From the NCBI GenBank assembly GCA_003116975.1, contig BGKB01000003.1, positions 620,001 to 684,000 on the forward strand: a stretch of 64,000 bases of DNA, in the 5' to 3' direction. Below the pieces are notes generated by a model. The model worked only from the letters and a program-made list of their open reading frames with translations. It was not told the origin of the DNA and did no database searches. Both the position numbers and the translations under genes were made by a program. Within the stretch, counting starts at the first letter, position 1, and the number at the start of each line of letters is the position of its first letter. The DNA comes from Aurantiochytrium sp. KH105. Its lineage: Eukaryota > Sar > Bigyra > Thraustochytrida > Thraustochytriidae. Of this stretch, positions 17,177-46,975 are shown piece by piece.

Positions 17177-18663
17177 CGCGCCCTGCCCGCGCCCGCCGCG
17201 CCCGCTCCCGCTCGCCGCGCGCGCGCGAGTCCTGCCGCTCGGTCTGCTCGGTCTGCTCGGCAAAGTCTGTCTGTCTGCCCGTCGCCGCCGCCACCCAACC
17301 CGCGGCGGGGCGCTGTAGCCGGACGTCGGCCGGGGTCCGGCCTGACGCGGAGAACCACAGAACCCGGACGTCCGCGGGGCGAGGAGTCGCCGATGGTCGC
17401 TGCCGCGCGCGGAGGAGCTGGCGGCGGCGGGCGCGAGGAGGGGCGAGGGGAGGGAGGGGAAGAGATGGCATGCAGGGGCCGAAGGACGCGGGAAGTTTTT
17501 GATTTGGCGCTTGATAACGCTGGGACGAACGGGAGGAGGCTTGGGAATGTGAAGCTGCAGCAGCCAGCTGCGACAGAGCAGATTAAAATTTTGCATTCCC
17601 AGTGTCGCCAAACCGACAGTGCGAATCATGAAAGCTCCGAATCCTGCTGGGCTTGTGATTCTAGAACCATCATGAGAAATAAATTATTTTGCATTCTTCG
17701 GTCGTTGGTCCCTCACGTGCACACCATTCATTGCTCGCCGTCGCCGTCGCCATTTTTTTCTCATTGCTGTCCTTCGACCTGCCATCGGCAAATGCCAGCA
17801 GTGGGCGACTCGAGCAAGAGCAGACTCTGAGACAGAGCAAGCCTCGAGCGTGTTCATCGATGACACTGTGGCACTGTTCCGAGTCCGAGTCCGAGTCCGA
17901 GTGCCAGAGTCCTGGCACTGCACTGCACTGCACTGCACTGCACGGCACTGCACTGCACTGCTCGCGGCAGCTCGTTCTTCCCGATGTTCCATTTCCCGCC
18001 GTGTTCCCCTTCCCGCACCCCCTTCCTCCATCTTCCCCCCCCCCAAGATCCTTCCGAGTCCTGGCACCCGCGCAAGTGCGACTCTCCCTTGCGCCGCGGG
18101 ATAGCCCACTTGCGGGCCCCGGGAGCCAAGTGCAGGCCGGCCCGAGGCCGCGCGAGCAGGGGAGGGCCGCCAGAGGCGCAGAGCAAGCCGCCGAAGAGGC
18201 CAAGCATCGCCGCAAAGCATCGCCCAAACAAACACCCGACCAAGCGGCGGGCAAGCAAGCGAGCGAGCAGGGCGGGGAGGCGAGGGCAAATTCGAATCGG
18301 CGGCCACGCGACGGGCGGCGCGGGCGGCGCGGGAGAGGCCGCGCGAGCGCGCAGCGGGGAGGAGCGGAGCGGAGCGGGAGGAGCGGGAGGAGCGGAGAGG
18401 AGAGGAGCGGCGGAGAGGAGGGCGAGGCGGGCAGCGAGCGCAGAGCAGAGCAGAGCAGAAACAGGCAGCGCAAGGCGAAGGCGGCGCGTTGGCTCGCGGA
18501 CTCGGCGACCGCAGGCGAAGCCGCGCGGGGCGGCGCGGCGCGAGGCGAGGCGAGGCGAGGCGAGGCGAGGCGGCTGGTCTGACGCGGGCGGAGTCGAGCC
18601 GGCGTGGCGCGGCGCGGCGCGGCGCGGCGCGGCGCGGTTCGAAGTTGAGCAGCCAGTGAAAAA
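17177..18663. other. Divergent GC-rich intergenic region
   Basis: This 1.5-kb gap lies between the methyltransferase (leftward) and the bZIP gene (rightward). It contains (GAGTCC)n-type repeats (17878-17902), a long CACTG run (17923-17960), a C8 tract (18037-18045), AGCGG and GAGCAG runs (18355-18460) and GCGAG/GCGCG runs (18538-18640) just upstream of the bZIP ATG. The upstream extension of the methyltransferase frame to 17629 falls here and could be coding if the longer start is used. No other gene is seen. Confidence 0.6.
17923..17960. repeat. (CACTG)n microsatellite
   Basis: Tandem pentamers of CACTG with one imperfect unit, in the divergent promoter region. Confidence 0.9.
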
Positions 18664-21600
18664 ATGGAGTGGGAGAGTAATAATAACGAGGATGATGGCG
18701 ACGTCTTCCAGTGGCTCCTGCAGGAGGGCCAAGGTGGCGGCATCGATAACTATGGTCAAGGCGGACCGCAGGATCCACATGGTCTCGCACCGCAACAACA
18801 TCAACAACACCGGCCGCATATGAGTCAGTATGATCATCAGCACCAGCAGCATCCGCATCATCAGCACCAGCACCAGCATCAGCAGCTCCCGGGGCCACCG
18901 CACATGCATCCGCAACACCCTCCAGAGTCGATGCCGCAGTACTCACAGCATGTGCATCATCACCCGCAGCACCCTCCTCAACATCAGCACCAGCATCCAC
19001 AGCACCAGCACCAGCATCCTCATCCACACGAGATGAGCGCTCACGCACAACCACCACCGTCGCAGCACTCACATCTCGCCCCACCCCATCAGCATGATCA
19101 TCGGGCGCATCATGTGCAGCAACCCCTCCCGCCGGCACATTCTGACCCACATAGCGCGATGGGGGACGGCGCTATGAAAGTGGATGATCATAATGCCTAT
19201 GGGAAACGCGACGTCTCTTATGGGATGGGGAACAACCAGGCATTCTCTGATCCGGCCGGAAGCTTTGGATGGGCTGATGGTCTTCTCGAGGAAAGTCCCA
19301 CCATGTTTTGGGATTCGACCATTCCGGACGTGGTGCCTCTCACCGACGATCTTGGTGGAGCCATGGATGCCATGATGGGCGGCACGCAAATCAATCAGCC
19401 CCCGGGCCTCGCCACGGCCATGCACGAGTTTGCTTCCGAGGCCGCAAGTGGCGCGCGAAGACGAGGCACCGCTTACTACCAAACGCAGCGTTCTCAGGCT
19501 CCTGGATATGGGTCCTATTTCGAAGCGCAGGCCAACGATCCGTACAGTGCAGTGGCAGAAGGCCACGCGTCTGATGAGTACGCGTCTGGAACGCCAGTCG
19601 ACGGCCTCGCTGCTGAAGACGCAATGATCGATGATCTTTCAGCGTCTGCCGACCCGGCACTCTCGTTCAACCCTGCCACCGCCGTTGCTGGGCCGGTGCC
19701 CTCCTCTTCTTCAACGGTGCCTCCACCCCCTCCCCCTGCAGCGCCTGCAGCGCCAATAGGCGCCGCCATGGTCAATGACACGAATGGTCGCGGCGCCGTG
19801 ACAAAGTCATCCTCTGTGACCGGCGCTCCCCAGGTCAGCCTTGCTCCAAGCGCGAGCCTTGAGGATGCGTCGCCTTCAGACAGCGCGCAGAACAAGGCCA
19901 CGGGCAATCGAGGCGGCGGCCGCAAGCGCAAGGGGGCTGTAGACGCGCCCATGTCGCCTCGGAGTCGTGCGCAACGCGAAAAGAATCGCGAAGCCGTTCG
20001 GAATTGCCGCAAGCGTAAGCGCGAGTACACGCAAAAGCTCAAGGATCGAGAGGCTATGCTGCTGGAGGAGAATGAGCGGCTTCGTACTCAGCTTAAACTT
20101 GGCTCAGAAGAGATGCAAGAAAGTATGCGCATGCAGTGCGAGCATTTGGTCGCCAATATGAAGGCTTCGCTCAGCAAGCAGGCCGCCCCTGCCTCCACCG
20201 CTGCTTCTTCGTCTTCTTCATCTTCTCCCACTGCCGACCAGGCAGCAAAGGTCAAGCTCGAAGAGTACACGGAGGGTTACCTCAAGACACATGAAGAACA
20301 GGGCCGCAATCGTGAGGAAGCGAGCAAGCACATTCTGTCTCGTCTCATTCGTCAAGTCGAGCCGACGCACGTTACGAAAATGTACCTGTGGCAGTGTGCG
20401 CAAGACGAGTCGTACTTTCATACCACGGGCGGGCTTTGGGAGGAGCTCTGCAATCGGCTCGGCTTGACGCGTGAGCAAAAGCTTAAATTGCGTGACCGAC
20501 GCAAGCGCGTCATTGAGATGTGCCGAGACATTGCGTCGGTGCTGGACAAGCTGGAGAACTTGCACACTCTCGTCATGAAGAAGAGGCGCCTCTCCGCGGA
20601 GACGATTCTCTTCCGTAGCTTGGCGCAGGAACTTTCGCCTGCACAACTGTCGCGCTTTGTGGTCTTTGTGCACAACTTTAATTCAAATGACCCTGCGCAC
20701 AAAGAGGCGTGGGCCAAGTATCTCGAATCATTTGACCCTACGATCGACCACGAGGGACTCAAGTTCACGGGACAGTGGATTGTGCACAACACCAGCGCGC
20801 GCACGATCGATGACAAGTTCAGCATCGAGTCGTCCAGTCCGCAACAGGGTCTTGCAGGCAAAGATGCGCAGAACGGACAGGCACAGCAGCAACTGCAACC
20901 GCAACAGCAACAGCAGTCGCCACCGCTGTCTCGCGAGAGGGCGACGGCAAAGCAAAACCCCGAAGCGGAGGGCGGTCTATCGCAAACGGAGGGAAGCGGG
21001 CAGACAGACCCTGGCTCCCCCGTCCAAAACGAAGAACTCTTGCGCAATCGGCACAACAGTGCAATTGTGCTCAAACAGCTCTTCGAACAGCCAGAGGACG
21101 AACTGCGAAGCTACGCTGACGCCGCGCTCGCACCAGACATTGCTCTTTACGATCCCAACACGGTGCGCGTGATTCTGGGCATTGAAAAGGTACTCAAATA
21201 CATTCGACGGATCCGCACCTCTTTTACTGGCCTCACAGCCAAAGAAGAGAACTTTATGACGCGGAAAAACGTGGCGCGAGGAAGATGGACATTGACCGGG
21301 ACGTACTATGGTCTCGGGCGGACGTCTGGCCCTGGCATTTCCACGCAAACGCAAGGCAAATCTACTTCGTCAACGTCATCGTCCTCCTCCTCTTCGCCTT
21401 CTGGACTTCCAAAGGTGGACGAGACCAGCGGGATCAACGCGGCAGCGGCTGGGGCCGCAGAGGATTCCAAGGGTGAGTCCACGGCCAAGGACAAGGCCAT
21501 CAAAGTCGCTGCCGAACGCGTTGTACAAAAGCCCGAGGGCAAACAAGTTTCCTTTCGTGTCATCATTGCCTACAAGTTCGTGCCCGGGAGCGCACAGATT

Positions 21601-22437
21601 CAGCAGCTCATGGTGAGCTGGGCAGCCTTGGACGTAATGCGTCAGCTCGGGCTCTTGCCTGAGAGCTTTAGCAAGACCATTGGCGATCGCATGCAGGAAC
21701 GAGCTAAGCGCGATGCCGAAGAGGCCAAGCGGGCAAAAGCTGCTGCTATGGCCCGTTCCGCGAGCAACGGTACTGGGAGCCATCTCAGCAACCGTGACGA
21801 CCTCGACTTGACGTCCGCCGGCCTAGCGCATAGCGAAGCGGACCTAAGCAGCCCTGGTGCCATGCTATCGCCTGGCGCGATGCTGCCGCCTGTCCCAAAG
21901 CTTGACCAACGGCTTCGCGAAAAGCTTTGCATCGAGATGACCAAGATTTTTGAGCTCTCCACGCCAGACGAGCGCATCGAGCTTGCCGACGAGCTACTCG
22001 ATGATCAGTGCGTGTTTCAAGACGCTAACATGGGTGGAGCCTTTCATGGTATCGACGAATGCGTCAACTATGTTCGTCGTCTGCGCAAAGCATTCTCGGA
22101 GATGACGCTAACGCGCCACAACTTTGTCTCGCTCAAGAAGCGCAAACGCGGCAAGCGCCGTGTACGCAGCTCGGGGAACTCGCGCACGGCGAGCGGAACG
22201 GACAAAGGAAACGGTGACGCTCATGATGCCGACGATGCCGAAGTCTCTTCTTCGGCGAGGACGCAAATGGGCTGTGTCGTTAAGGGAAAGTACACGGGTA
22301 TGCTTGTGAACGAGCCCAAGCCGTTCGAGTTCAATGCGACCATTTTCGTGGCCTTCGGCGAGCGGAACAAGATTACCGAAGTAGAAATTTCTTGGAATGC
22401 AACGCACATTCTCAAGCAGCTTGGCGTCCTGCAATAA
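18664..22437 (+). CDS. bZIP transcription factor with two NTF2/SnoaL-like domains
   Basis: The protein is 1257 aa, starting at ATG 18664 just after a GCGCG run. The N-terminus (nt 18800-19140) is His/Gln/Pro-rich. A bZIP domain follows at about residues 430-480: the basic region contains 'NREAVRNCRKRKREY' (the N-x7-R type signature), then leucine heptads ('MLLEENERLRTQL'). A helical region of unknown type (nt 20260-20760) includes 'LSPAQLSRFVVFVHNF'. Two segments look like NTF2/SnoaL-type alpha+beta domains: one at about nt 21090-21650, interrupted by a Ser-rich insert, and a second at 21925-22434. Each starts with an acidic helix and 'ALYDPNTVRVILGIEKV' or 'CVFQDANMGGAFHGIDE' and ends with a strand plus 'VSWAALDVMRQLGLL' or 'ISWNATHILKQLGVL'. 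The matched ends show they are internal repeats. Function: nuclear DNA-binding regulator; the target and any small-molecule ligand are unknown. Confidence 0.85.
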   Translation: MEWESNNNEDDGDVFQWLLQEGQGGGIDNYGQGGPQDPHGLAPQQHQQHRPHMSQYDHQHQQHPHHQHQHQHQQLPGPPHMHPQHPPESMPQYSQHVHHHPQHPPQHQHQHPQHQHQHPHPHEMSAHAQPPPSQHSHLAPPHQHDHRAHHVQQPLPPAHSDPHSAMGDGAMKVDDHNAYGKRDVSYGMGNNQAFSDPAGSFGWADGLLEESPTMFWDSTIPDVVPLTDDLGGAMDAMMGGTQINQPPGLATAMHEFASEAASGARRRGTAYYQTQRSQAPGYGSYFEAQANDPYSAVAEGHASDEYASGTPVDGLAAEDAMIDDLSASADPALSFNPATAVAGPVPSSSSTVPPPPPPAAPAAPIGAAMVNDTNGRGAVTKSSSVTGAPQVSLAPSASLEDASPSDSAQNKATGNRGGGRKRKGAVDAPMSPRSRAQREKNREAVRNCRKRKREYTQKLKDREAMLLEENERLRTQLKLGSEEMQESMRMQCEHLVANMKASLSKQAAPASTAASSSSSSSPTADQAAKVKLEEYTEGYLKTHEEQGRNREEASKHILSRLIRQVEPTHVTKMYLWQCAQDESYFHTTGGLWEELCNRLGLTREQKLKLRDRRKRVIEMCRDIASVLDKLENLHTLVMKKRRLSAETILFRSLAQELSPAQLSRFVVFVHNFNSNDPAHKEAWAKYLESFDPTIDHEGLKFTGQWIVHNTSARTIDDKFSIESSSPQQGLAGKDAQNGQAQQQLQPQQQQQSPPLSRERATAKQNPEAEGGLSQTEGSGQTDPGSPVQNEELLRNRHNSAIVLKQLFEQPEDELRSYADAALAPDIALYDPNTVRVILGIEKVLKYIRRIRTSFTGLTAKEENFMTRKNVARGRWTLTGTYYGLGRTSGPGISTQTQGKSTSSTSSSSSSSPSGLPKVDETSGINAAAAGAAEDSKGESTAKDKAIKVAAERVVQKPEGKQVSFRVIIAYKFVPGSAQIQQLMVSWAALDVMRQLGLLPESFSKTIGDRMQERAKRDAEEAKRAKAAAMARSASNGTGSHLSNRDDLDLTSAGLAHSEADLSSPGAMLSPGAMLPPVPKLDQRLREKLCIEMTKIFELSTPDERIELADELLDDQCVFQDANMGGAFHGIDECVNYVRRLRKAFSEMTLTRHNFVSLKKRKRGKRRVRSSGNSRTASGTDKGNGDAHDADDAEVSSSARTQMGCVVKGKYTGMLVNEPKPFEFNATIFVAFGERNKITEVEISWNATHILKQLGVLQ

Positions 22438-33371: not shown

Positions 33372-33793
33372 TGTGCGCTGCAGCTAGCAGGCAGCGAGAC
33401 TGGCAGAGGTGAGATTGCCTCGGTTCAAGTTGCCTTGCTTGATCCAGGTCATGTCTTGCCATCAGTCAATCAATGTTGTTGTCTGGCGCGCATGCTGCGC
33501 CATGGAGAACTTTGCCAAGCCTTGAGAGCTACAAGCGACTACAGGTCTTGTCAGCAATTTTTTTTGCTAATAGGCGAAGCACGGCTGGCACTGGTTCTGG
33601 CACATGGGCAAGCTCGGCAGGCTCAATGAAAAGAGTGAGTGAGATGCAGTTTTGCGCTTGAATCTTCGTCGCAGCCTGCGTTCAACCCCAACCAAGGTAC
33701 GGTGGCAAAGCCGCAGCAGACCTGAATAAAGCGCTGCGGAGCGGTGAACGCGCATTGCATAGCGTGACGCTCGCTGATCGAGCGCGGGGAAAG
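33372..33793. other. Divergent promoter region
   Basis: This gap of 422 bp lies between the leftward P3B ATPase and the rightward hydrolase. The middle (33440-33640) is less GC-rich, with a T-rich run at 33556-33567. I see no gene or clear regulatory motif. Confidence 0.5.
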
Positions 33794-34825
33794 ATGATCG
33801 ATCTCGACGAGGTTTTCTTTGGCGTGGTACGAGCAGCGCTGGTTGTGATCGCCTTTGTGCTGTGGCGCTCGTCGAAGCGCCGCGCATACGTGGCTGATGG
33901 CGGCGCCGTGGCAACCCGGCAGACGGCCAACCCGCCGGAGGGGGGCAAGGTGCAGCAGTTGACGCGCGGGCACTGCCACTACCGCATCGACGGCGAGAAG
34001 AACTCGGGCAAGCTCGTTGTCCTGGTGCACGGCCTTATTGGCTGCACTCTCGATTATGGTCCTTTGTGCAAGATCCTCGTGGAGCAACACCGACGAAGAG
34101 TGCTCCGACTCGATTTGTATGGGCGCGGGTGGAGCACAGCGCCTTTGATGGGCGCGGATTCGCTGCCGGAGCTGTACGCAGGGCAAATTGCAGAGCTTCT
34201 ATTTGCCATTGGGGAAAGAGGCCCGATCGACCTCGTGGGCAACTCGATGGGCGGGGCCATTGCGGCTTGCTTTGCGGCTCGTTTCGGTCGAGCCCACGTC
34301 GCATCGGTGACGCTGGTGGTGCCCGCGGGTCTGTCAGCTGTGGACGAGACGATTCCTGCTTGGCAGCAGCGACTCTATGATGTTCTGGAAGAACTCCCGT
34401 TTGTACCAAAACATCTGCTACGGGCCAATGTGCAGGCGCGTCTCGACAAGCTCAAGGACGAGCAGTATTCGCACTGGACGGTTCCCAACAACGACGTTAT
34501 TCGCAAGTATTATCACGAGTACCAGGCGAAGCGACTTGCCCGTGAGCGGCATTTGGCGGATGCCTACATTGAGACGCTGCGCAGCTTTCCTTTGTCTGCC
34601 AGCAGGCCGCTCTTTGAAGCGCTAGCGCGCAGCGAGGTTCCTTGTATGGTATGCTGGTCCAAGCTGGATCGTCGTGTTCCGTTTGCGTGTGCGGAGGAGA
34701 TGCGCGCCATTTTTGCAGGCGCTGACTTTGAGGAGCACATTTCCGAGGACGGCGGCCACAGTCTCGTCATTGAGAATGCGCCTTTTGTCGCGGAGCGCTT
34801 TGTCCCGTTTTCGCGCAAGAACTAA
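33794..34825 (+). CDS. Membrane-anchored alpha/beta hydrolase
   Basis: The protein is 343 aa from the ATG at 33794. An N-terminal hydrophobic helix ('VVRAALVVIAFVLW') should anchor it in a membrane. The hydrolase fold shows the oxyanion-hole strand 'LVVLVHGLIGC' (nt about 34010-34045), the nucleophile elbow 'LVGNSMGGAIA' with Ser (about 34245), an acid-bearing 'CWSKLDRRVPF' (34651-34683) and the catalytic His in 'DGGHSLVIE' (34749-34775). The complete triad suggests an active esterase or lipase. N-terminal anchor plus single domain resembles ABHD6-type monoacylglycerol lipases, but substrate assignment is inference. Confidence 0.85.
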   Translation: MIDLDEVFFGVVRAALVVIAFVLWRSSKRRAYVADGGAVATRQTANPPEGGKVQQLTRGHCHYRIDGEKNSGKLVVLVHGLIGCTLDYGPLCKILVEQHRRRVLRLDLYGRGWSTAPLMGADSLPELYAGQIAELLFAIGERGPIDLVGNSMGGAIAACFAARFGRAHVASVTLVVPAGLSAVDETIPAWQQRLYDVLEELPFVPKHLLRANVQARLDKLKDEQYSHWTVPNNDVIRKYYHEYQAKRLARERHLADAYIETLRSFPLSASRPLFEALARSEVPCMVCWSKLDRRVPFACAEEMRAIFAGADFEEHISEDGGHSLVIENAPFVAERFVPFSRKN

Positions 34826-36957
34826 TCATTTTTCTCCCTCGCGTTTTCTCTTTTTCTCTTTTTCTCTTTTCCGTAGAATCGATGCGTCTTGCGTCTCATC
34901 TTGAGCAGGCGACAAATCCCTGATAGTGTCCTGGATGCACAATGGGCCCAGCAGGACCATAAACCCCGAAAGCCACTCCAAGGCCAGGCCGCCAAGGCTA
35001 GAATCGTATTCTCCTGCGAATCATCCGAGTATTTCGGCTATCAGGTCTGGGCGAATTTCTATGCCTTTCTCACGAGTGGGCAGTCAAGAGAGTCTTGCAT
35101 CTCACGTCGCAGGTCTGAGCTGTCCTTAATGATGGCTCCGACCGCCCTCGCTGACGGTTTTCTGCACGTTGCCGGTCACAGAATCGGCCCGCCGGTCACA
35201 CGCCGCCCGCTGCCGCACTTTCGCTCCTCGCCGTTTCGCTGGGGTGAGACAGGGAGAAGAGCTAGCTAGCTAGCTGCCTCCGCCCCGTCCCTGGCTTCCC
35301 GCGGCGCGGCCGCCCCGAGAGGGCCGAGACAGCGAGCCCCTCCCCCTCGCTCGAGGCTGCCCTGTCTTCCCCCAAGTTCGGGAAGCGGCGTGGAAGCAGG
35401 GCGGGCAGATGGGGCTCCATCTTGCACGTGCCGGTCTCTCTGCTCTCTTTTTTACATTACAGTTTTTTTCTGCTGCTGCTGGTTTCTGTGCTGCTGTTTT
35501 CTGGCTGCTGGCTGTGGTTTCTGCGGCGCGGCAGCATCGTCCTCTGCGCGCTGCAAGATGGGGCCCAGCCTCGCGGTACCGAGCGTGCTCGGCACGGTCG
35601 AGGGAGAGAGTCCGCGTGCGTTTCGCAACGCAACGCAGCGCACCTGGCTGGCTGGCTCGCTGGCTCGCTGGCAAGTTGGGGAAAGCAGAGCGGCTGCGCG
35701 ACGGCGAGGCGAGGCCCCTTTCTTTTGCAGTGCCTGCCTGCCTCTCACAGTCAAGCACGCGCGCACGCACGCACGCACGCACCGTGTCCAAGCCACGAGG
35801 AAGATCATCGGAGTCCCCGAGGTCGCTCTCAGCCTGTAGACAGTCTTTGCTGATCATTGCCGCTGCCGCTGCTCAGGCTGGTCCCGATGGTGAACGAATT
35901 GAAATGCCGCGCCGCGACGGGCGGCCGGCAGGTCGGCTGTGCTGTGCTGCGCTGCGCTGCGGCGCTGCTGCCAGCCTGCCAGCCAGCCAGCCAGGCCGGC
36001 CCTGTGCGTCTGAGTGGTCCGTCAGTCGGTCGTGTCCGGGCGCCGAGGCTCGGCCTCCGCACGCGCACTCGAGCCTGGCTGGCTGGCCCCGCCCGCCTTG
36101 GCCGCCTCCACCGTCGCTTCTTCCGCTTTCGCAGCTCGAAGTTAGTTGCGCTGCAGTTCGAACTTTTAGGTAGGTGAGCGAGCGAAGGAGACAGTCTCGC
36201 CGGCCTCAGCGCCGCGGCGCGCGCCAGAGGGGACGCCTGCCTCCGCTCCCGAGGCCTCGCTCAGTGGATCCCGCCTCGACGCACTCCGAAGGTCCAGCCT
36301 GCCTCGCCTGCCTCGCCCCGCCTGCGTGCGTGCTCGCCCGCGGCGCGGCGCGGAGCGGGGGCGGGCAGAGGCGGGAGCAGCCAGCTGCAGGCGCGGCAGA
36401 GCAGACGCGCAGGCCCGCCGCGGCGGAGGCGGCAGACGCGGCCAGGCGAGGCGCGGCGAGGCGGGGCGGGGCGGGCGGGGCGAGGCATGGCGCGCGCGGA
36501 GGCGCCGCGGAGGCGCGTGCGCAGCCGGCCGGGGCAGGCGCAGGGGCAGGCACTGGAGCGGCGGGCGCAGCCAGGGGGTTCTGGCGCGAGGCCGCGGCCG
36601 GCGGGGGCGGCGCCCGCCGAGGCCTCTGCTTCTGTGGAGGCCGACGCCGGCGAGGCGGGCCGCGGCTGCAGGCGCCACGCGCGCGCGCTCCGGGACGCCC
36701 GCGTCTGCAGCGGCAGCGGCGGCGGCGGCAGCAGAAGCGACAGCGAGTCCTGGACTCGGGCATCGCCATCCGGGGCAGCGACCTCGAAGACGGCGACGCA
36801 GACCGCGCACGCGACGGCCAGGGCGACCAAGCCGCGCGAGTACTACGCCAGCGACGAGAGGATAGGCACATCCTCGCCAAAACCAGTGCCTTCTCTCTGC
36901 ACGAGCAGCACGAGAGAATGCAGCAAAACGACCTGCAAGAGGAGTCCGTGGTGGGAC
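34826..36957. other. Long intergenic region upstream of the PAN-repeat gene
   Basis: This 2.1-kb gap contains the 186-bp duplicated fragment (34903-35088), TAGC runs (35260-35275), a T-rich run (35448-35468), GCTGG/GCTCG runs (35644-35672), a (GCAC)n run (35757-35781) and then strongly GC-rich sequence (36200-36950). An ATG at 36487 is in frame with the PAN-repeat gene and would add 157 low-complexity Arg/Ala/Gly residues. I treat that stretch as leader because a good signal peptide follows the later ATG. No other gene is seen. Confidence 0.55.
34903..35088 (+). pseudogene. Duplicated fragment of the glycosyltransferase gene
   Basis: This copy of 23628-23813 is the same length and differs at one base by eye. 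It carries an internal slice of the coding frame with no start and no catalytic motif beyond the first strand, so it cannot make an enzyme. It lies 77 bp after the stop of the alpha/beta hydrolase gene. The near identity means the copy is very recent or was homogenised. No flanking target duplication or transposon ends are visible. Confidence 0.9.
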
Positions 36958-39900
36958 ATGCCCGCGATGGCCACGGCACATCTGCGGCGACGGCAATGGA
37001 CAGCGGCAGGGCTCGTGATCGTCGCGCTGCTCACGGTATTGCCAGCGCTTTGCATCGGCGAGACCAATGTGGTGGATCAGCTCGCTTACAGCAACTTTGT
37101 TGAGCTCATGAACGCGGGCGGCCTCGGTAATCTGTACTTTATTTACTGCGATGACACCGCTTCCCTCGAGGACCCATGTTCCTGCAGCTCAAACGGGCGT
37201 CAGATCGTCTGTAATGACGAAAATCAAATTGAGGAGATTTTACTCCCGGAGAACCGCCTTTTCGGTGATCTTACGCGAGAAATGCTCCTGGGGTTCACCG
37301 CGCTCACGCGACTCAACCTCTCGTCAACATCGCTGACTTCTCCGGATCGAAATACGCTAAACACCACGCTCTTACCCATGGGCGGCTGCCTGTCCATCCC
37401 AGAGTGCCTCGATGGAACCTGGGACTGCGACTTTTCACAAAGTGACCTCGACCTCTGTGACACGCTTCCGCCGACGCCGAGCCCTGCGCAGACCCCGACG
37501 ATTACGGTCTCCGATATTTACGTTGGCTACCACTTCATACAGACAAGCGACAACCTATTGGTGCAGATTGACGATATTGACTCTGCGGTCGCCTGCCGTG
37601 ACATTTGCATTGGGTTTTCCGAATGCGAGTACTTTTCCTATCGAATTTCAGGGACGAACGCCGGCAGGTGCGAGCTTTACATTTACTTTGACGAGTTCGA
37701 AGAGGATGAAGACTGGGCCTCGGGATCCCAGGGAGGGGACTACTTTCTGCCCACGTCTGCGCCTACGACCTTGCCGGACGGGATCTTTGCCGGGATCTAC
37801 ATTGTTAATACGGACGACAATCTCGTCGATGAGGAAGAGGGTGTCACCTCGGCGGCCACTTGTCAAAGTCTTTGCGTGGCAAACGACGAGTGCGGGTATT
37901 TCTCATACAAGCTTTCGGGGGACAACGTCGGGCTCTGCGTGCTGTACGCAGATGTCGCAGATGTCACGGAGGATGATGAATGGGCCTCGGGTGCCGAAGA
38001 TGGGTCCGACTTTCTGCCCACATCCACACCAACTTTGTCGCCGAGTGCAACGCAGCCAACGAATGTACCATCTGCAAGTCCAACTGCTATCGCCACGCCC
38101 ACTTCGAGCCCCACTGAAGCATGCATCGTTACTGGGTCTCGGTACGCCCGAGACACCGACGGCCAGCCCATTGAAAGTTTGGACGCTGTCGAATCTGCAA
38201 ACGTATGTGGTCAAACTTGCCTCGATACAACGAGCTGCGGATACTTTGCCTACAAGCGCTCTGGTAACAATGCTGGTCTCTGCGAACTATTTTCAGACGT
38301 CTCGGCCGGGATAGTGGACGCCGAACTCTGGTCTCGAGGTGAGGCGGCGTGCTTGTCATCCACGCCAGCCCCTTCATTGCAGCCATCAACGACGTCACCG
38401 ACTCCGTTTCCGAGCGCAGTGCTTACCACAGATTCGCCCACCACGAATCAGGGCCCGAGCCCGGCACCTAGCGCTTCCCCAACCTCGTCAATACCGGCCT
38501 CATGCCTCGTGCAGGGTGAACGTTTTATTCGTACAGGCGACGAAGTAGTATATACAGAGATTACAAGCGTCGAGGCCTGCCAGGCTCTCTGTCAGGAGGA
38601 TGACTCGTGTACAAACTTTGCTTTTCGTTATAAAGGAGGAAATCCTGGACGCTGCGAGCTCTATGCTGACATATCTGCTGGTACGCAGACTTCCTCTATT
38701 TGGGAAAGGGGTCCTAGGGTCTGCGGGGATGAATCCTCAACCCAAAGTCCGACACAAAGTCCAACACTTCCGCCTTCAGAGTGCTATACAGATGGTTTTC
38801 GATTTGTCAGAGATGACGGCGTTCAACCTTACGAAGTCACCACGACGGACGCCAGCTTGGAAGCCTGCCAAGAAGTTTGCGCGGCAGACGATGCGTGCCA
38901 GTACTTTGCCATCAAACTTTCGGCATCGAACGCGGGTCAATGCGAGCTTTTCTCAGACACAAGCTTGGGTACGACGGATGCACCGAACTGGGCATACGGT
39001 CCAAAGACCTGTGCGTCATCCGAGCCAACGTCATCTCCTGTGCAAGGGCCAACGACAGCCACACAATCGCCGACAGTACCGACGCAAGCACCAACAGCCC
39101 CGACCCAGGCGCCAACTGCACCGACTCAGGCGCCAACTGCACCAACACAGGCACCAACGGACTCAACGCAGTCACCGACGACGCCAACAGATTCAGGATC
39201 CGGGCCAACCCAAGCTCCGACTCTTCCGCCTTCGGAGTGCTACACAGATGGTTTCCGGTTCGTCAGAGACGACGGTGTGCAGCCCTACGAAGTCACGACG
39301 ACAGATGCCAGCTTGGAAGCCTGTCAGGAAGTTTGTGCGGCGGACGATGAATGTTTATATTTTGCCATCAAACTTTCAGCATCGAACGCGGGCCAATGCG
39401 AGCTTTTCTCAGACATAAGCTTGGGTACGACGGATGCACCGAATTGGGCATACGGTCCAAAGACCTGTGCGTCATCCGAGCCAACGTCATCTCCTGTGCA
39501 AGGGCCAACGACACTCACACAATCGCCGACAGTGCCGACGCAAACACCAACAGCATCGACCCAGGCGCCAACTGCACCAACACAGGCACCGACGGACTCG
39601 ACGCAGTCACCGACGACGCCAACGGGTGCAGGTTCAGTCCCAACCCAGGCCCCAACGCTTCCTCCTTCAGAGTGCTATACAGATGGTTTTCGATTCGTCA
39701 GAGATGACGGCGTCCAGCCTTACGAAGTCACGACGACGGACGCCAGCTTGGAAGCCTGCCAGGAAGTTTGCGCGGCAGACGATGCGTGCCAGTACTTCGC
39801 CATCAAACTTTCGGCATCGAACGCGGGTCAATGTGAGCTTTTCTCAGACATAAGCTTGGGTACGACGGATGCACCGAACTGGGCATACGGTCCAAAGACC

Positions 39901-42900
39901 TGTGCGTCATCCGAGCCAACGTCATCTCCTGTGCAAGGGCCAACGACAGCCACACAATCGCCGACAGTACCGACGCAAGCACCGACCGCCCCGACCCAGG
40001 CGCCAACTGCACCGACTCAGGCGCCAACTGCATCAACACAGGCACCGACGGACTCGACGCAGTCGCCAACGACGCCAACAGATTCAGGATCCGGGCCAAC
40101 CCAAGCTCCGACTCTTCCGCCTTCGGAGTGCTACACAGATGGTTTCCGTTTCGTCAGAGATGACGGTGTGCAGCCCTACGAAGTCACGACGACAGATGCC
40201 AGCTTGGAAGCCTGTCAGGAAGTTTGTGCGGCGGACGACGAATGTTTATATTTTGCCATCAAACTATCGGCATCGAACGCGGGTCAATGTGAGCTTTTCT
40301 CAGACATAAGCTTGGGTACGACGGATGCACCGAACTGGGCATACGGTCCAAAGACCTGTGCGTCATCCGAGCCAACGTCATCTCCTGTGCAAGGGCCAAC
40401 GACAGCCACACAATCGCCGACAGTGCCGACGCAGGCCCCAACAGCACCGACCCAGGCGCCAACGGATTCGACTCAAGCGCCGACGTCGCCCACGCAAGCG
40501 CCAACCAACTCAGGCTCGGAGCCAACCCAAGCCCCGACGCTTCCGCCTTCAGAGTGCTATACAGATGGTTTTCGATTCGTCAGAGATGACGGCGTCCAAC
40601 CTTACGAAGTCACGACGACGGACGCCAGCTTGAAAGCCTGCCAAGAAGTTTGCGCGGCAGACGATGCGTGCCAGTACTTTGCCATCAAACTATCGGCATC
40701 GAACGCGGGTCAATGTGAGCTTTTCTCAGACATAAGCTTGGGTACAACGGAAGCACCAAATTGGGCATACGGTCCAAAGACCTGTGCGTCATCCGAGCCA
40801 ACGTCGTCTCCTGTGCAAGGGCCAACGACAGCCACACAATCGCCGACAGTACCGACGCAGGCCCCAACAGCACCGACCCAGGCGCCAACGGATTCGACCC
40901 AAGCGCCGACGTCGCCCACGCAAGCGCCAACCAACTCAGGCTCGGAGCCAACCCAAGCCCCGACGCTTCCGCCTTCAGAGTGCTATACAGATGGCTTTCG
41001 GTTCGTCAGAGACGATGGCGTCCAACCTTACGAAGTCACGACGACGGACGCCAGCTTGGAAGCCTGCCAAGAAGTTTGCACTGCGGACGACGAATGTTTA
41101 TATTTTGCCATCAAACTATCGGCATCGAACGCGGGCCAATGCGAGCTCTTCTCAGACATAAGCTTGGGAACGACGGATGCACCGAATTGGGCATACGGTC
41201 CAAAGACCTGTGCGTCATCCGAGCCAACGTCATCTCCTGTGCAAGGGCCAACGACAGCCACACAATCGCCGACAGTACCGACGCAGGCCCCAACAGCACC
41301 GACCCAGGCGCCAACGGATTCGACCCAAGCGCCGACGTCGCCCACGCAAGCGCCAACCAACTCTGGCTCGGAGCCAACCCAAGCCCCGACGCTTCCGCCT
41401 TCAGAGTGCTATACAGATGGCTTTCGGTTCGTCAGAGACGATGGAGTGCAGCCTTACGAAGTCACGACGACGGACGCCAGCTTGGAAGCCTGCCAAGAAG
41501 TTTGCGCTGCGGATGATGAATGTTTATATTTTGCCATCAAACTATCGGCATCGAACGCGGGCCAATGCGAGCTTTTCTCAGACATAAGCTTGGGAACGAC
41601 GGAGGCACCAAATTGGGCATACGGTCCAAAGACCTGTGCGTCATCCGAGCCAACGTCATCTCCTGTGCAAGGGCCAACGACAGCCACACAATCGCCGACA
41701 GTACCAACGCAGGCCCCAACAGCACAGACCCAGGCGCCAACGGATTCGACCCAAGCGCCGACGTCGCCCACGCAAGCGCCAACCAACTCAGGCGCGGAGC
41801 CAACCCAAGCTCCAACGCTTCCTCCTTCGGAGTGCTACACAGATGGTTTCCGATTCGTTAGAGACGACGGAGTGCAGCCTTACGAAGTCACGACGACGGA
41901 CGCCAGCTTGGAAGCCTGCCAAGAAGTTTGCGCTGCGGATGATGAATGTTTATATTTTGCCATCAAACTATCGGCATCGAACGCGGGCCAATGCGAGCTC
42001 TTCTCAGACATAAGCTTGGGAACGACGGAGGCACCGAACTGGGCATATGGACCCAAGACCTGCTCAGAAGGTGCGCCAACGCAGTCGCCAACGCAGTCTC
42101 CAGGTGCTATAATTACGAATGGTCCCACGGGAGCACCCACCGAAGCGCCAACGTTTCCACCGAGCGTTTGCTTCACAGAAGGTCAGCGCTTTACACGCTC
42201 AGACGAAGCAGGGGAACCAATCGATACAGTTTCATCGGCGCTCTCCGCTGACGCCTGTCAAGCTAATTGCGCGCTTACGACTGGATGCGAGTACTTTGCC
42301 TTTCGCTATGCGGGAGCCAATCCCGGACGGTGCGAGCTGTATAGCTCCATCGAAGCAGGAACGACCTCGTCTTCCATCTGGCTGACGGGGCCTCGATCGT
42401 GCGTCTCTGTACCGACTCTGGCCCCTACCCGTAGCCCCACGAGCTCGCCAACAGAGTGCTATACGGAGGGCTTTCGATATGAACGCGTAGATGGTGAGCA
42501 GCCCTTTGAAACCATTACCACAGACACTGACGCTGAGGCGTGCCAGGCGGCATGCCAGCTAAGCGACGAGTGCACTCACTTTTCAGTCAAGCTATCTGGG
42601 TCAAATGAAGGCCAGTGCGAGCTCTTTTCCAACATCGAAGCTGGAACGACAAGCGCGCCTCTATGGGTACTAGGTCCACGCTCGTGTTCAGACGACACGT
42701 CGTCTCCAACCGCGTCAGAGGAGCCGACGTCCACGCCAACGGCATCCCCGACGAGCTGCTTCGCAGACGGGGCGCATTGGGCAGATGATCCTTTTGAAAC
42801 ACTCACGGGGATAGAGTCTGCCGAGGCATGCCAAGCCGAGTGCCTTGCATCCGATGCGTGTGTTGTCTTTTCCTACAACTTTCAAGGACGAAACGAGGGA

Positions 42901-45120
42901 AGGTGCGAGCTGCTGACAACGACATATAGTGGTCTGGATCTTGCAAACAACTGGGTCTCTGGCCCCAAGGTATGCGGCTTGACCTTCTCACCGACGTTTT
43001 CGCCCTCTGCGCTCACGACCCCGCGGCCAACCCGAAGTCCAACGGGATATCCAACTACACTTCGGCCAACGCCATCGCCGACAACGCTTTCTCCCACGGC
43101 ATCTCCTACGGAGAGGCCAACGACTGCGGAACCGACGTCGTCTCCGACAAATGCACCGCTTGCTCTCGCCGAGGATGAACTTGAAGCGTGGGAAGACTTT
43201 TACCTGGCTTTGAACGGAGAGTCGTGGTACACGTGCGGGACGATCGACGACCCTTGCAATTACCCGAGCTGCGATGAGGACTCGCAGACAGAGGGCCGAT
43301 ATGTAGTGTGCATGATTCCTGTCGAGCGGCGTAGGTTGCTCAAGCAGCGGTGGTCGTCGCTCCGAAAATTGCAGGAATCTGTGGCCAGCGTTGTGGAGAT
43401 TGTGCTTCCAGACAATGGCCTCGAGGGCGTCTTACCTGCCGAACTCATGGAGCCCTTTACGAATTTCCAGCTCCTCAATCTGTCTGGAAATGACATTACT
43501 GGAGACGGCCCGGATGACTGCGTCGACATCCAGCGGTGCTACGAGGACGGCGTGATCTGTGATGTCCCAAACTTGTGCGGGGAAGTTTTCGGTGTGAACC
43601 CAGATGGGACTCCTGACTGGACGCCGCCAACGGATGGTGAGACGGACATGTATCCGCTCATCGAGCTTGAAGTCGGGGAGTCTGTGTTTTTCAATTTCAG
43701 CGAAGACAGCAATGTGGTGCAGATGAGTTCACAGACGGCCTTTGAGAACTGCGAATTTTCAGGTTCTGTTGTCCTGGCCTCTGCATCGCAGGGTTCTTAT
43801 CGCTTCGTGGCCAAGAAAGACGACGCCGGAGACACGGTGTACATTGCGAGCTCGCTGCCGACCTCTTCGCACGAGAGCTGCGCGAATGGCCAGCGCGTCG
43901 CCATCGCCGTCGAGGGGACGACGACCGCGCCCACGAGCGAGGCCGTCGACCCGGGCGACGACGACGACAACGGTGTGCCTTGGTGGGTGATCCTGCTCGT
44001 GGCGCTGGTGCTCCTCTGCTGCGTGCTGCCCTGCTTGCTGTGCTTGCTGCTCGCCTGCGCGCAGCGGTGCTGCCCGGAGCGGGTCCCCGAGCGCCTCGCC
44101 AAGCCGCTCGACCGCTTCGTGCAGGCGGGCCCCGCCAAGAACAGGAGGGACCAGGCGCTCGGGTTCCCAGACCCGGACGGCCTAGCGCCGTACACCGCGC
44201 TGCCACCCAGGCACCAGCGGTCGGCGCCGCCGGTGCTGGAGACGGGCTTCGCGGGCTTCGCGGGCGCCGCTGTGCCCACGCCCGCCCCCACGCCCGCGTC
44301 CTCGCCCACGGCGGCGTCGGCGTCGAGGCGCGGCATGGCGGCGACGGCGACGGCGGGCCTGCCAGGCCACGACGCTGCTGCAGGTGCTGCTGCCGGTCGC
44401 GCGGGGAGGCGCGGGCCTGCAAGATACGACTCGAGCGCCATGGAGGTCTTTCTCGCGCCGCACGCAGTGGACGGGGTGCTGGTGGCTAGCGAGCACGGCG
44501 ACGTCTTCTTGGACGAAGAGGATCGCCGGGCCGCCGCCCTGCGCGAAAACCCATCGCTCAAGCAGGCCAAGTTGCAGGCCTTGGCCATGAATACGGTGGT
44601 TTCGCGCCCCATCAGCAGCATGGAAGACCTGCTCCGCGAAGCAAACCTCGAGCAGCACATTCCCCACTTTCGGAGCGAGCACATGGACCTTGAGGCAGTC
44701 ACATTTGCCAGCGAGGGCCAGCTCCGTGAGCTCGGGCTTTCCATGGGCGAAGCGGTCCGTTTGCGTCACATCACGCGGACGCTGCAGCGCAAGCTGGCCC
44801 AAACCGCTTCCGCTCCTGCGACTGGGACCGTGACTAGCACAACACCCAGTGGCAAACCCTTGCGCGGTGTCTTGAAGAAGCCGCATCCAACTGCTTACGC
44901 CGTCCCTACGCAACGTGCTCAGTTTGGTCCAGGGGACCCTGTTACTGTGCACCGCGTAGGGGCCAAGGTACTTCGAGGCCGTATTACAGAGGTCCGCGAC
45001 GCGGGTCACGCCACTCGTGAACCTCGCTACGTCGTGGAAATTGCTCAGCAGTCTCGGCAGGGCGCTGCCGCGAGCGCACGGCAACAAGTCGTCCGTGAGT
45101 CCGAACTGCGAGCAGCGTAA
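36958..45120 (+). CDS. Giant PAN/Apple-repeat receptor-like protein with LRRs, one TM, SAM and SH3-like domains
   Basis: The protein is about 2720 aa from ATG 36958 (alternative in-frame ATG 36487). A signal peptide ('GLVIVALLTVLPALCIG') is followed by an N-terminal LRR cap region (nt 37150-37440). Fifteen PAN/Apple-like modules (about 37500-42980) follow, each with the pattern C..C, C-x-[YH]-F, then N-x-G-x-C-x-L, joined by mucin-like T/P/S/Q linkers likely to be O-glycosylated. Modules 5-12 are almost identical. After a Thr/Pro stalk comes another LRR segment (43390-43530), a single transmembrane helix (about 43975-44055) with Cys-rich flank, a Pro/Ala-rich cytosolic stretch, a SAM domain (44605-44800, 'LLREANLEQHIPHF' and 'LRELGLSMGEAVRLRHI') and an SH3/tudor-like tail (44920-45045). 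It should be a type I surface protein: PAN modules bind proteins or glycans outside, and SAM gives oligomerisation inside. No kinase domain is present. The ligand is unknown. Confidence 0.85.
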   Translation: MPAMATAHLRRRQWTAAGLVIVALLTVLPALCIGETNVVDQLAYSNFVELMNAGGLGNLYFIYCDDTASLEDPCSCSSNGRQIVCNDENQIEEILLPENRLFGDLTREMLLGFTALTRLNLSSTSLTSPDRNTLNTTLLPMGGCLSIPECLDGTWDCDFSQSDLDLCDTLPPTPSPAQTPTITVSDIYVGYHFIQTSDNLLVQIDDIDSAVACRDICIGFSECEYFSYRISGTNAGRCELYIYFDEFEEDEDWASGSQGGDYFLPTSAPTTLPDGIFAGIYIVNTDDNLVDEEEGVTSAATCQSLCVANDECGYFSYKLSGDNVGLCVLYADVADVTEDDEWASGAEDGSDFLPTSTPTLSPSATQPTNVPSASPTAIATPTSSPTEACIVTGSRYARDTDGQPIESLDAVESANVCGQTCLDTTSCGYFAYKRSGNNAGLCELFSDVSAGIVDAELWSRGEAACLSSTPAPSLQPSTTSPTPFPSAVLTTDSPTTNQGPSPAPSASPTSSIPASCLVQGERFIRTGDEVVYTEITSVEACQALCQEDDSCTNFAFRYKGGNPGRCELYADISAGTQTSSIWERGPRVCGDESSTQSPTQSPTLPPSECYTDGFRFVRDDGVQPYEVTTTDASLEACQEVCAADDACQYFAIKLSASNAGQCELFSDTSLGTTDAPNWAYGPKTCASSEPTSSPVQGPTTATQSPTVPTQAPTAPTQAPTAPTQAPTAPTQAPTDSTQSPTTPTDSGSGPTQAPTLPPSECYTDGFRFVRDDGVQPYEVTTTDASLEACQEVCAADDECLYFAIKLSASNAGQCELFSDISLGTTDAPNWAYGPKTCASSEPTSSPVQGPTTLTQSPTVPTQTPTASTQAPTAPTQAPTDSTQSPTTPTGAGSVPTQAPTLPPSECYTDGFRFVRDDGVQPYEVTTTDASLEACQEVCAADDACQYFAIKLSASNAGQCELFSDISLGTTDAPNWAYGPKTCASSEPTSSPVQGPTTATQSPTVPTQAPTAPTQAPTAPTQAPTASTQAPTDSTQSPTTPTDSGSGPTQAPTLPPSECYTDGFRFVRDDGVQPYEVTTTDASLEACQEVCAADDECLYFAIKLSASNAGQCELFSDISLGTTDAPNWAYGPKTCASSEPTSSPVQGPTTATQSPTVPTQAPTAPTQAPTDSTQAPTSPTQAPTNSGSEPTQAPTLPPSECYTDGFRFVRDDGVQPYEVTTTDASLKACQEVCAADDACQYFAIKLSASNAGQCELFSDISLGTTEAPNWAYGPKTCASSEPTSSPVQGPTTATQSPTVPTQAPTAPTQAPTDSTQAPTSPTQAPTNSGSEPTQAPTLPPSECYTDGFRFVRDDGVQPYEVTTTDASLEACQEVCTADDECLYFAIKLSASNAGQCELFSDISLGTTDAPNWAYGPKTCASSEPTSSPVQGPTTATQSPTVPTQAPTAPTQAPTDSTQAPTSPTQAPTNSGSEPTQAPTLPPSECYTDGFRFVRDDGVQPYEVTTTDASLEACQEVCAADDECLYFAIKLSASNAGQCELFSDISLGTTEAPNWAYGPKTCASSEPTSSPVQGPTTATQSPTVPTQAPTAQTQAPTDSTQAPTSPTQAPTNSGAEPTQAPTLPPSECYTDGFRFVRDDGVQPYEVTTTDASLEACQEVCAADDECLYFAIKLSASNAGQCELFSDISLGTTEAPNWAYGPKTCSEGAPTQSPTQSPGAIITNGPTGAPTEAPTFPPSVCFTEGQRFTRSDEAGEPIDTVSSALSADACQANCALTTGCEYFAFRYAGANPGRCELYSSIEAGTTSSSIWLTGPRSCVSVPTLAPTRSPTSSPTECYTEGFRYERVDGEQPFETITTDTDAEACQAACQLSDECTHFSVKLSGSNEGQCELFSNIEAGTTSAPLWVLGPRSCSDDTSSPTASEEPTSTPTASPTSCFADGAHWADDPFETLTGIESAEACQAECLASDACVVFSYNFQGRNEGRCELLTTTYSGLDLANNWVSGPKVCGLTFSPTFSPSALTTPRPTRSPTGYPTTLRPTPSPTTLSPTASPTERPTTAEPTSSPTNAPLALAEDELEAWEDFYLALNGESWYTCGTIDDPCNYPSCDEDSQTEGRYVVCMIPVERRRLLKQRWSSLRKLQESVASVVEIVLPDNGLEGVLPAELMEPFTNFQLLNLSGNDITGDGPDDCVDIQRCYEDGVICDVPNLCGEVFGVNPDGTPDWTPPTDGETDMYPLIELEVGESVFFNFSEDSNVVQMSSQTAFENCEFSGSVVLASASQGSYRFVAKKDDAGDTVYIASSLPTSSHESCANGQRVAIAVEGTTTAPTSEAVDPGDDDDNGVPWWVILLVALVLLCCVLPCLLCLLLACAQRCCPERVPERLAKPLDRFVQAGPAKNRRDQALGFPDPDGLAPYTALPPRHQRSAPPVLETGFAGFAGAAVPTPAPTPASSPTAASASRRGMAATATAGLPGHDAAAGAAAGRAGRRGPARYDSSAMEVFLAPHAVDGVLVASEHGDVFLDEEDRRAAALRENPSLKQAKLQALAMNTVVSRPISSMEDLLREANLEQHIPHFRSEHMDLEAVTFASEGQLRELGLSMGEAVRLRHITRTLQRKLAQTASAPATGTVTSTTPSGKPLRGVLKKPHPTAYAVPTQRAQFGPGDPVTVHRVGAKVLRGRITEVRDAGHATREPRYVVEIAQQSRQGAAASARQQVVRESELRAA
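38779..42255 (+). repeat. Eight near-identical tandem PAN+linker units
   Basis: The repeat boundary taken at the conserved 'ECYTDG' codons falls at 38779, 39235, 39670, 40126, 40552, 40978, 41404 and 41830. The spacings are 456, 435, 456, 426, 426, 426 and 426 bp. All are multiples of three, so the frame is kept. Differences among units are few and mostly in linker length. This implies recent tandem duplication with ongoing homogenisation. Confidence 0.95.
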
Positions 45121-45530: not shown

Positions 45531-46466
45531 TCACGATGCTGAAGTAGGTTTTTCACCTGGCGTCGTACTTTGAGCAAAGGGGAAGGTTGTAGCTAGAGCG
45601 TCGGCGACGGAGGCAACATTCTCAAAGAGAAAAAAGTGCCCATCTTCAGCAAAGTGTTGCGCGCCCAGCCAACGCGAAGTGCTGGACTCATTATTATCGC
45701 TCGCAGTCGTGCCCTTGGCACCGACGAGACCTGCCCAAGGAAAAACATCCGTAGTTTCGAGATCATTCCCGTAAAGAGCCTTTAGCGAGACATTTGCATG
45801 GTTGCCAAAGATGGCATCGGTGTCGCGCGAGCAACCAGCTGGTGACTCAGAAAAGGAAAATGTTTCGAGGAGTTCGTAGTCAGCTCGGAGTGGCGGGAGA
45901 ATGAGGGCCCGGAAGGCAGCATGGTCGAGAACCTCCTTCGGGGTCCCTCCCTTGGCCGATATGTATTCGAGGAAGGCCGAGTCGCTCATCTCCTTGACCT
46001 TGGGAAGTGATCCCAAAAGATTTTGAGGAGCCCGCGAGGCGGCCACAACGAGGCGAACAGGCCATGCAGCCAGGTCAAAGCTGTCATTCTCAGCCTTGTC
46101 GACATCGCTCGGATTCAAGAGCGTCTCGAGGGTCTGCCACGCGACCTGGGACCCCAGTGAGTAGCCAAAGAAGACGACGGCACGAGGGGCGCACGCTTGT
46201 TTCCGTAAAAGCTGACGGACTTCTCGGGCGACATCGGGGACAAGCTCCGTGAAGCTACGATACACGGGCTCTTTTGCCCGAGCAAGGCGGCCTGGAAGCG
46301 ACACGCCAATCGTTGTAGCGTGGCCTTTTGCGGCCAAGTCCTTGGCGAGCGCCCGAACAGAAGGATGCGCAAGGTTTCCGCCTGCCCACGGAAAGAAGAA
46401 CACGAGCGCTTGTCCTGGAGCCGCGCTCGCGAGAACCTCGAGTCGCACTCTGCTCGGCCCCGTCAT
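45531..46466 (-). CDS. Type II thioesterase (alpha/beta hydrolase, GrsT/OLAH-like)
   Basis: The protein is 311 aa from the ATG at 46466; the frame extends upstream only to a GTG. Family features are 'LVFFFPWAGGN' near the N-terminus (the P-x-A-G-G motif of type II thioesterases), the nucleophile elbow 'VVFFGYSLGSQVAW' with Ser, the lid-region segment 'LPPLRADYELLETF', and 'AEDGHFFLFEN' carrying the catalytic His. These enzymes release or edit acyl chains on carrier proteins of fatty-acid, polyketide or PUFA synthases. No synthase gene lies in this window, so its partner is unknown. It is divergent from the ARMC6 gene. Confidence 0.88.
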   Translation of the reverse strand: MTGPSRVRLEVLASAAPGQALVFFFPWAGGNLAHPSVRALAKDLAAKGHATTIGVSLPGRLARAKEPVYRSFTELVPDVAREVRQLLRKQACAPRAVVFFGYSLGSQVAWQTLETLLNPSDVDKAENDSFDLAAWPVRLVVAASRAPQNLLGSLPKVKEMSDSAFLEYISAKGGTPKEVLDHAAFRALILPPLRADYELLETFSFSESPAGCSRDTDAIFGNHANVSLKALYGNDLETTDVFPWAGLVGAKGTTASDNNESSTSRWLGAQHFAEDGHFFLFENVASVADALATTFPFAQSTTPGEKPTSAS

Positions 46467-46975
46467 TGGCGTCAACGACAGACGGCGATAGGATCGATCG
46501 TGCTGCGATGCCGGGCTGGGTCTGCCTGCGACTCTGCGCTCGCTCACGCACACACAGTGTCAAATCGGCGAAAATCGGCAAGAAAAACCTCCAGCGGGTC
46601 GCCAGCGAGCGGGCTGGGGTGGGTTTGCAGGTGTCCCCGCGCAGAGGTGTGTGCCAAGGGTGTGCGCGACGCGGGGACCTCGGCCGTTGGAGAGAGAGAC
46701 ACAGAGAGAGACAGAGAGAGAGAGAGAGGGGGGAGCACCGTCACTCCTCGCGACCTCGGGGCTTCTCGACTAATCGATCGCGCCGGCAACCTGCGGACAG
46801 CGCCGACGGCACCGGGGGCGCGGGCAAACCCCTTTTGCTGCGCAACGAGCAAGGCAGTCGGAGCTGATCGGTTGGGTCCTTGGCAAGCTCGCCTGCGTTC
46901 TTCCTTTGTGCCGGCGCGTGGAGCAGAGCAGAGCAGAGCAGAGCCGAGCAGAGCCGAGCAGAGCAGGAACGAAAG
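46467..46975. other. Divergent promoter region with GA and AGAGC repeats
   Basis: This gap of 509 bp lies between the thioesterase and ARMC6 genes. It holds a GAGA run (about 46690-46730) and a direct AGAGC/AGCAG array (46920-46966) immediately upstream of the ARMC6 ATG. No gene is seen. Confidence 0.55.

Follow-up and report, generated by a model that had tools for sequence, protein, structure and literature searches.

Do nearly identical protein modules repeated in tandem within one reading frame record a recent burst of copying? PAN/apple domains bind protein or carbohydrate, and a gene with an array of them raises the question in the thraustochytrid Aurantiochytrium sp. KH105, where we analysed a window of 64,000 nucleotides (contig BGKB01000003.1, positions 620,001 to 684,000; coordinates without a contig prefix are window positions, and all gene features lie on the + strand). 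A preliminary description of this DNA proposed a recent duplication of a two-unit block followed by single-unit amplification, with gene conversion maintaining identity and a copy number that varies between strains. Comparison of two genomic copies of the gene allowed age, selection and exchange to be separated, and we consider it probable that the array is an old one of eight modules, whose units swap short pieces while their proteins are held by purifying selection.

Organisation of the PAN gene

ORF analysis placed all eight array units within a single open frame (36178-45120, stop included), with a putative translation start, chosen by eye, at the ATG at 36958 or 36967 and a signal-peptide-like stretch downstream of it. 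The predicted ectodomain begins with a weak leucine-rich-repeat match (37060-37509; LRR_8 13.1 bits, cut-off 27) and four divergent PAN-like modules ahead of the array (37510-37743, 37780-38013, 38113-38361 and 38494-38733; together 37510-38733). Past the array are three further divergent PAN-like modules (42163-42411, 42451-42696 and 42748-42984; together 42163-42984), which brings the protein to 15 modules, and a Thr/Pro-rich stretch with a second leucine-rich-repeat-like part (43012-43974; LRR_1 14.3 bits, cut-off 20.6). A probable membrane span read from the sequence follows (43975-44061), and the tail contains a tentative SAM-like helical domain (44614-44811). This domain scores below the Pfam SAM cut-offs (SAM_1 16 vs 23 bits, SAM_TNK 14.4 vs 25 bits); its single-sequence structure model has a pLDDT of 74.8, and the nine best matches of a fold search, all weak (E of at least 0.12), are or contain SAM domains, so that we tentatively call it SAM-like and not a member of the SAM family. 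The gene product is probably a large type I surface protein with one predicted membrane span, a signal-peptide-like start and a SAM-like tail, span and start both being predictions made by eye. Judged by homology to known PAN/apple domains, it would most likely act at the cell surface as a multivalent adhesin or receptor, and its Thr/Pro-rich linkers are probably glycosylated.

The whole protein scores 172.3 bits with Pfam PAN_1 and lies above the cut-off of 21.4, which single units straddle (A1 22.6 bits, A2 20.5 bits). The helix/hairpin cysteine columns C31, C35, C41 and C56 are invariant in 13/13 aligned window modules (array units A4 and A7 were left out of this alignment), and the module has the three-dimensional PAN/apple fold. 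Scattered Pfam matches to T6_Ig_like, DUF4979 and, below threshold, Cu_bind_like were set aside. Four RPB1 matches from a PDB sequence search were likewise set aside as compositional, falling in a Thr/Pro/Ser-rich stretch that includes array sequence; two designed Scone proteins matched near the second leucine-rich-repeat-like part in the same search.

In the window copy (copy A) the array consists of units A1 (38776-39231, 456 bp), A2 (39232-39666, 435 bp), A3 (39667-40122, 456 bp), A4 (40123-40548), A5 (40549-40974), A6 (40975-41400) and A7 (41401-41826), the last four of 426 bp each, and A8 (41827-42162), which joins a core to a different linker of 99 bp. A1, A3 and A5 carry the signature ACQ (DACQYF, type Q) and the remaining units ECL (DECLYF, type L), giving the order Q L Q L Q L L L. 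The eight in-frame PAN+linker units, their spacings (456, 435, 456, 426, 426, 426, 426) and the alternating signatures are exactly as first described. The bounds originally given, 38779-42255, enclose a genuine array but need correction, since it starts at 38776 and A8 ends at 42162, the former end falling inside the next, divergent PAN module. Tandem Repeats Finder reported one array (39640-42062, period 426, score 3778) and 21-bp minisatellites within the linkers. The PAN core measures 237 bp in every array unit, so units differ in length through their linkers. One type of linker comes in steps of 21 bp (198, 219, 240 and 261 bp), another, of 189 bp, occurs in A4-A7 and in unit B7 of the second copy described below, and both arrays close with a linker of 99 bp. 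Linker length would change mostly in 21-bp (7-residue) steps.

A second copy of the array in the same genome

Searching the genome with a single unit returned eight close copies on the contig of the window (C3) and eight on contig C176. The latter is collinear with window positions 22.3-51.2 kb, two long aligned pieces being 95.2% and 90.4% identical, of which the 90.4% piece includes the array. The tail of the gene matches each contig once over its full length, and two partial, weak matches lie elsewhere in the genome. We interpret C3 and C176 as a pair of haplotypes or as the two subgenomes of a hybrid. In copy B, on C176, the spacings are 477, 498, 456, 477, 435, 435 and 426 and the signatures Q Q Q L Q Q L D, the eighth being DDCLYF. 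Linker lengths differ between the copies and the unit number is equal, so the proposed variation in copy number is not borne out by the only comparison possible, that of two copies in one genome (8 and 8). PAN counts also agree between copies in 13/13 other gene pairs fetched, which lie on eight contigs, a part of those with PAN hits; the survey excludes two opposite-strand frames of 119 residues, each with a single hit.

Misassembly, leaving one or both arrays chimeric or with the wrong number of units, might be favoured by exact inter-unit matches of up to 158 bp in copy A and 170 bp in copy B, but matches of this length are short for a long-read assembly. As both copies keep the frame and a pN/pS near 0.04, and each has its own linker lengths, we think such an error quite improbable.

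Age of the units and purifying selection

Outside the array, dS between the two copies is 0.090, 0.063, 0.057, 0.074 and 0.067 in five segments of the gene. Among units it averages 0.54 in copy A and 0.47 in copy B (range 0.15-0.94), and for same-position units of A and B 0.46 (0.15-0.83), while pooled pN/pS of the array units is 0.031-0.048. The array therefore long predates the split of the two copies, and its module proteins are kept alike by selection, together with partial exchange between units. Purifying selection would keep the modules nearly identical in protein as their synonymous sites diverge. An expansion described as recent is hard to reconcile with mean unit values of 0.54 and 0.47 against 0.057-0.090 between copies outside the array; the closest unit pairs (8-10 differences) alone could be about as old as that split. 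Near-identical protein repeats are by themselves no evidence of recent expansion, a common inference that this locus corrects, and we regard the array as an unusually clear and clean case of known repeat evolution and not as a recent copying burst.

Divergence between copies is concentrated in the array. Same-position cores differ at 150/1896 bases and sequence outside the array at 121/4671 (p=1.3e-20), and in 150-bp steps 3-21% of bases differ between 38887 and 42186, against 0-5% in the rest of the gene from 42187 onwards. In the 13 other gene pairs, 49 allelic PAN modules have dS values of 0-0.28, a range exceeded at 6/8 array positions. This confinement of high dS is what faster mutation in the array, instead of old variation, would produce, but the distribution of variants makes it highly improbable. 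Among 60 variable core sites in the 16 units, 34 have two bases common to both copies, only 10 are singletons and fixed differences are absent; the synonymous variation is thus old and common to both copies. Moreover, the flank rate predicts about 31 new synonymous changes (estimated as ~55 sites x 16 units x 0.035), enough to account for the 26 other variable sites without extra mutation.

Unit order and the histories of linkers and cores

The proposed two-unit block has some basis in copy A, where cores two units apart differ at 8 (A1-A3), 8 (A2-A4) and 9 (A3-A5) of 237 bases and neighbours from A1-A2 to A4-A5 at 28, 25, 22 and 27. A two-unit period is present in A1-A5, with 1.6% of all 40320 orderings equally good, but it is not significant in copy B, where 24.7% of orderings are as good. 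Subsequent amplification of single units fares worse. Linkers of A4-A7 differ at 2-8/189 bases and their cores at 9-27/237; variable columns number 37/237 in core and 10/189 in linker (Fisher p=9e-4), and variable third positions 32/79 and 8/63 (p=3e-4). Linker and core in these units therefore have separate histories, and copying of whole last units does not account for nearly identical linkers joined to cores that are not. A recent block duplication with single-unit amplification, conversion preserving identity and strain-variable copy number can appeal to the periodicity in A1-A5, to the constant spacing (426 bp) of the units that follow and to those closest pairs whose age is compatible with the split of the copies. 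Set against these are the excess of dS among units over that between copies, the discordant linker and core histories, the eight units on each copy and the failure of simulated young arrays described below, and we consider this history unlikely.

A register shift between copies was also judged less likely: whichever four to eight units are re-paired with their order kept, similarity does not return to the level of the flanks, and the mean stays at 12.75 differences or more vs ~6 expected.

Exchange between units

That exchange occurs between units, as the preliminary description supposed, is upheld. A Sawyer-type test gave p=0.0005 for the pooled units, for copy A and for copy B, and PHI was significant in the pooled set (p=0.0015) and in A (0.0015), but not in B (0.47). 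In a least-cost mosaic 12/16 units need two or more donors, with breakpoints within cores; the units are mosaics of the kind that marks concerted evolution. Conversion-like exchanges of ~100 bp would move pieces between array units, and as a result of inter-unit exchange the units on the two copies have largely lost positional correspondence. As the mechanism we infer gene conversion and not balanced unequal crossing-over.

Grouping of units by copy is weak. In the unit tree all eight Q-type units, from A and B alike, form one group (99/96), and copy labels require 5 changes vs a shuffled mean of 5.7, that is, there is no clustering by copy. For 13/16 units the closest other unit belongs to their own copy (p=0.021), and mean distances give p=0.055. 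Along with the missing PHI signal in copy B, this weak within-copy clustering counts against the short-exchange reading.

The Q and L signatures correspond to cassettes at codons 40-42, GCG TGC CAG or GAA TGT TTA on both copies, and GAT TGT TTA in B8. At 38893-38901 and the equivalent codons, linked A..Q or E..L residues thus surround a PAN-core cysteine (D..L in B8), and recombination between those residues was seen in none of the 16 units.

Selection or length-neutral exchange, perhaps seeded in the minisatellite-like linkers, may hold the unit number at eight while conversion rewrites unit identity, so that Q and L types are reassorted along a stalk of fixed number and alleles differ in order; we offer this as a tentative idea. 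Synonymous diversity showed no general fall towards the linkers in a position profile of 14 units, and a homogenised linker start was found in copy A only, so that linker-seeded exchange is not demonstrated. If the number is truly fixed and the order scrambled, the array would be a good case for studying how length-neutral exchange works in coding repeats and for finding out if an adhesive stalk depends on the order of its modules.

Simulation of array histories

We simulated two eight-unit arrays descending from a common ancestor at approximately the flank mutation rate, with inter-unit exchange and fixed unit number, in a rough run and then a grid, a fit being defined as all four measures within 2 sd. 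The simulation is simple (abstract states, no interallelic exchange, no linkers), and its values of age and exchange are meaningful to an order of magnitude only. Short-tract runs that set out from identical units 0, 1, 2 or 4 split-times ahead of the split gave a fit in 0/24 cells. At ages of 8, 16 and 40, when each unit underwent 2, 2.5 or 3 exchanges of ~100 bp after the split, 8/9 cells fit, the exception being age 8 with 3 exchanges; at the same ages 0, 0.5 or 1 exchange per unit gave no fit. Whole-unit copying at 0, 0.5 or 1 events per unit yielded one fitting cell (age 40, 0.5).

That cell, which also reproduces all four measures and so weighs against the preferred account, is an argument for balanced unequal crossing-over, in which whole units are gained and lost and the number returns to eight; the uniform 426-bp spacing of A4-A7 points the same way. 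Under it, however, ~9/16 units should have a near-identical partner (<=4 differences), and 0/16 do, whereas the fitting short-tract cells predict 1-3. Breakpoints inside cores, and re-pairings that stay at or above the mean of 12.75 differences, also speak against this alternative, which we find rather unlikely. Recent origin, whole-unit amplification, a register shift and raised mutation in the array, each of which was tested, are all judged less likely than an old array with short exchanges between its units.

Comparison with known systems

The closest parallels come from other coding repeats. Like the PAN array, Plasmodium polyubiquitin combines coding tandem repeats and a conserved protein with synonymous divergence and exchange boundaries inside repeats, and P. 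falciparum and P. praefalciparum are reported to have equal repeat number with changed order (PMC10457151). It is a different protein, and the PAN units differ in being joined by variable linkers, in their weak clustering by copy and in having been compared between two copies in one genome. Primate filaggrin likewise has a long single-exon array with high synonymous diversity under purifying selection; its repeat number varies between and within species, and its study found no major recombination (PMC5225520), whereas the PAN array is equal in number in two copies and its exchange is supported.

As regards the domain, the PAN model is only 19-31% identical to the structures of the coccidian PAN/apple adhesins MIC5, MIC4 and SML-2 (PMC2575384), and nothing in the data on the PAN gene points to micronemes or to a parasite. 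The oomycete surface lectin CBEL, a stramenopile protein, has PAN/apple modules separated by a Pro/Thr-rich hinge, but comprises two PAN and two CBM1 modules and no array (PMC3532174). Our literature search found no paper joining the PAN domain with Aurantiochytrium, and PAN does not occur as a whole word in the main text of a paper on the A. limacinum ectoplasmic network (PMC12221091).

Neighbouring ORFs and other PAN genes

A number of further ORFs were identified in the window. The PAN gene has alpha/beta-hydrolase and thioesterase ORFs as neighbours on either side (33662-34822 and 45534-46559). About 14 kb from the gene, an ORF at 22747-24720 matches hydroxyproline O-arabinosyltransferase (HPAT, 64.6 bits), a possible clue to glycosylation of Pro/Thr-rich linkers in this organism. 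A single open frame at 18649-22434 shows an odd pairing of a bZIP region with subsequent SnoaL-like matches and may represent two genes in one frame.

Elsewhere in the genome, a PAN protein with five modules on both copies (C232:55436-58286 and C234:11669-14447; L045 and L046) has adjacent modules 3 and 4 that are identical in amino acid sequence, with a dS of 0.12 in C232, and a long PTPEP-type repeat whose length differs between copies. Another PAN gene has 11 modules on both copies (C1:574770-581733 and C26:1034406-1041438), and its non-adjacent modules 4 and 6 are 96% identical with a dS of 0.18, a likeness that suggests exchange or duplication there too. In the PAN gene pairs on C92/C101 and C21/C68 the open-frame lengths differ by 242 and 129 residues, respectively, and the PAN counts agree.
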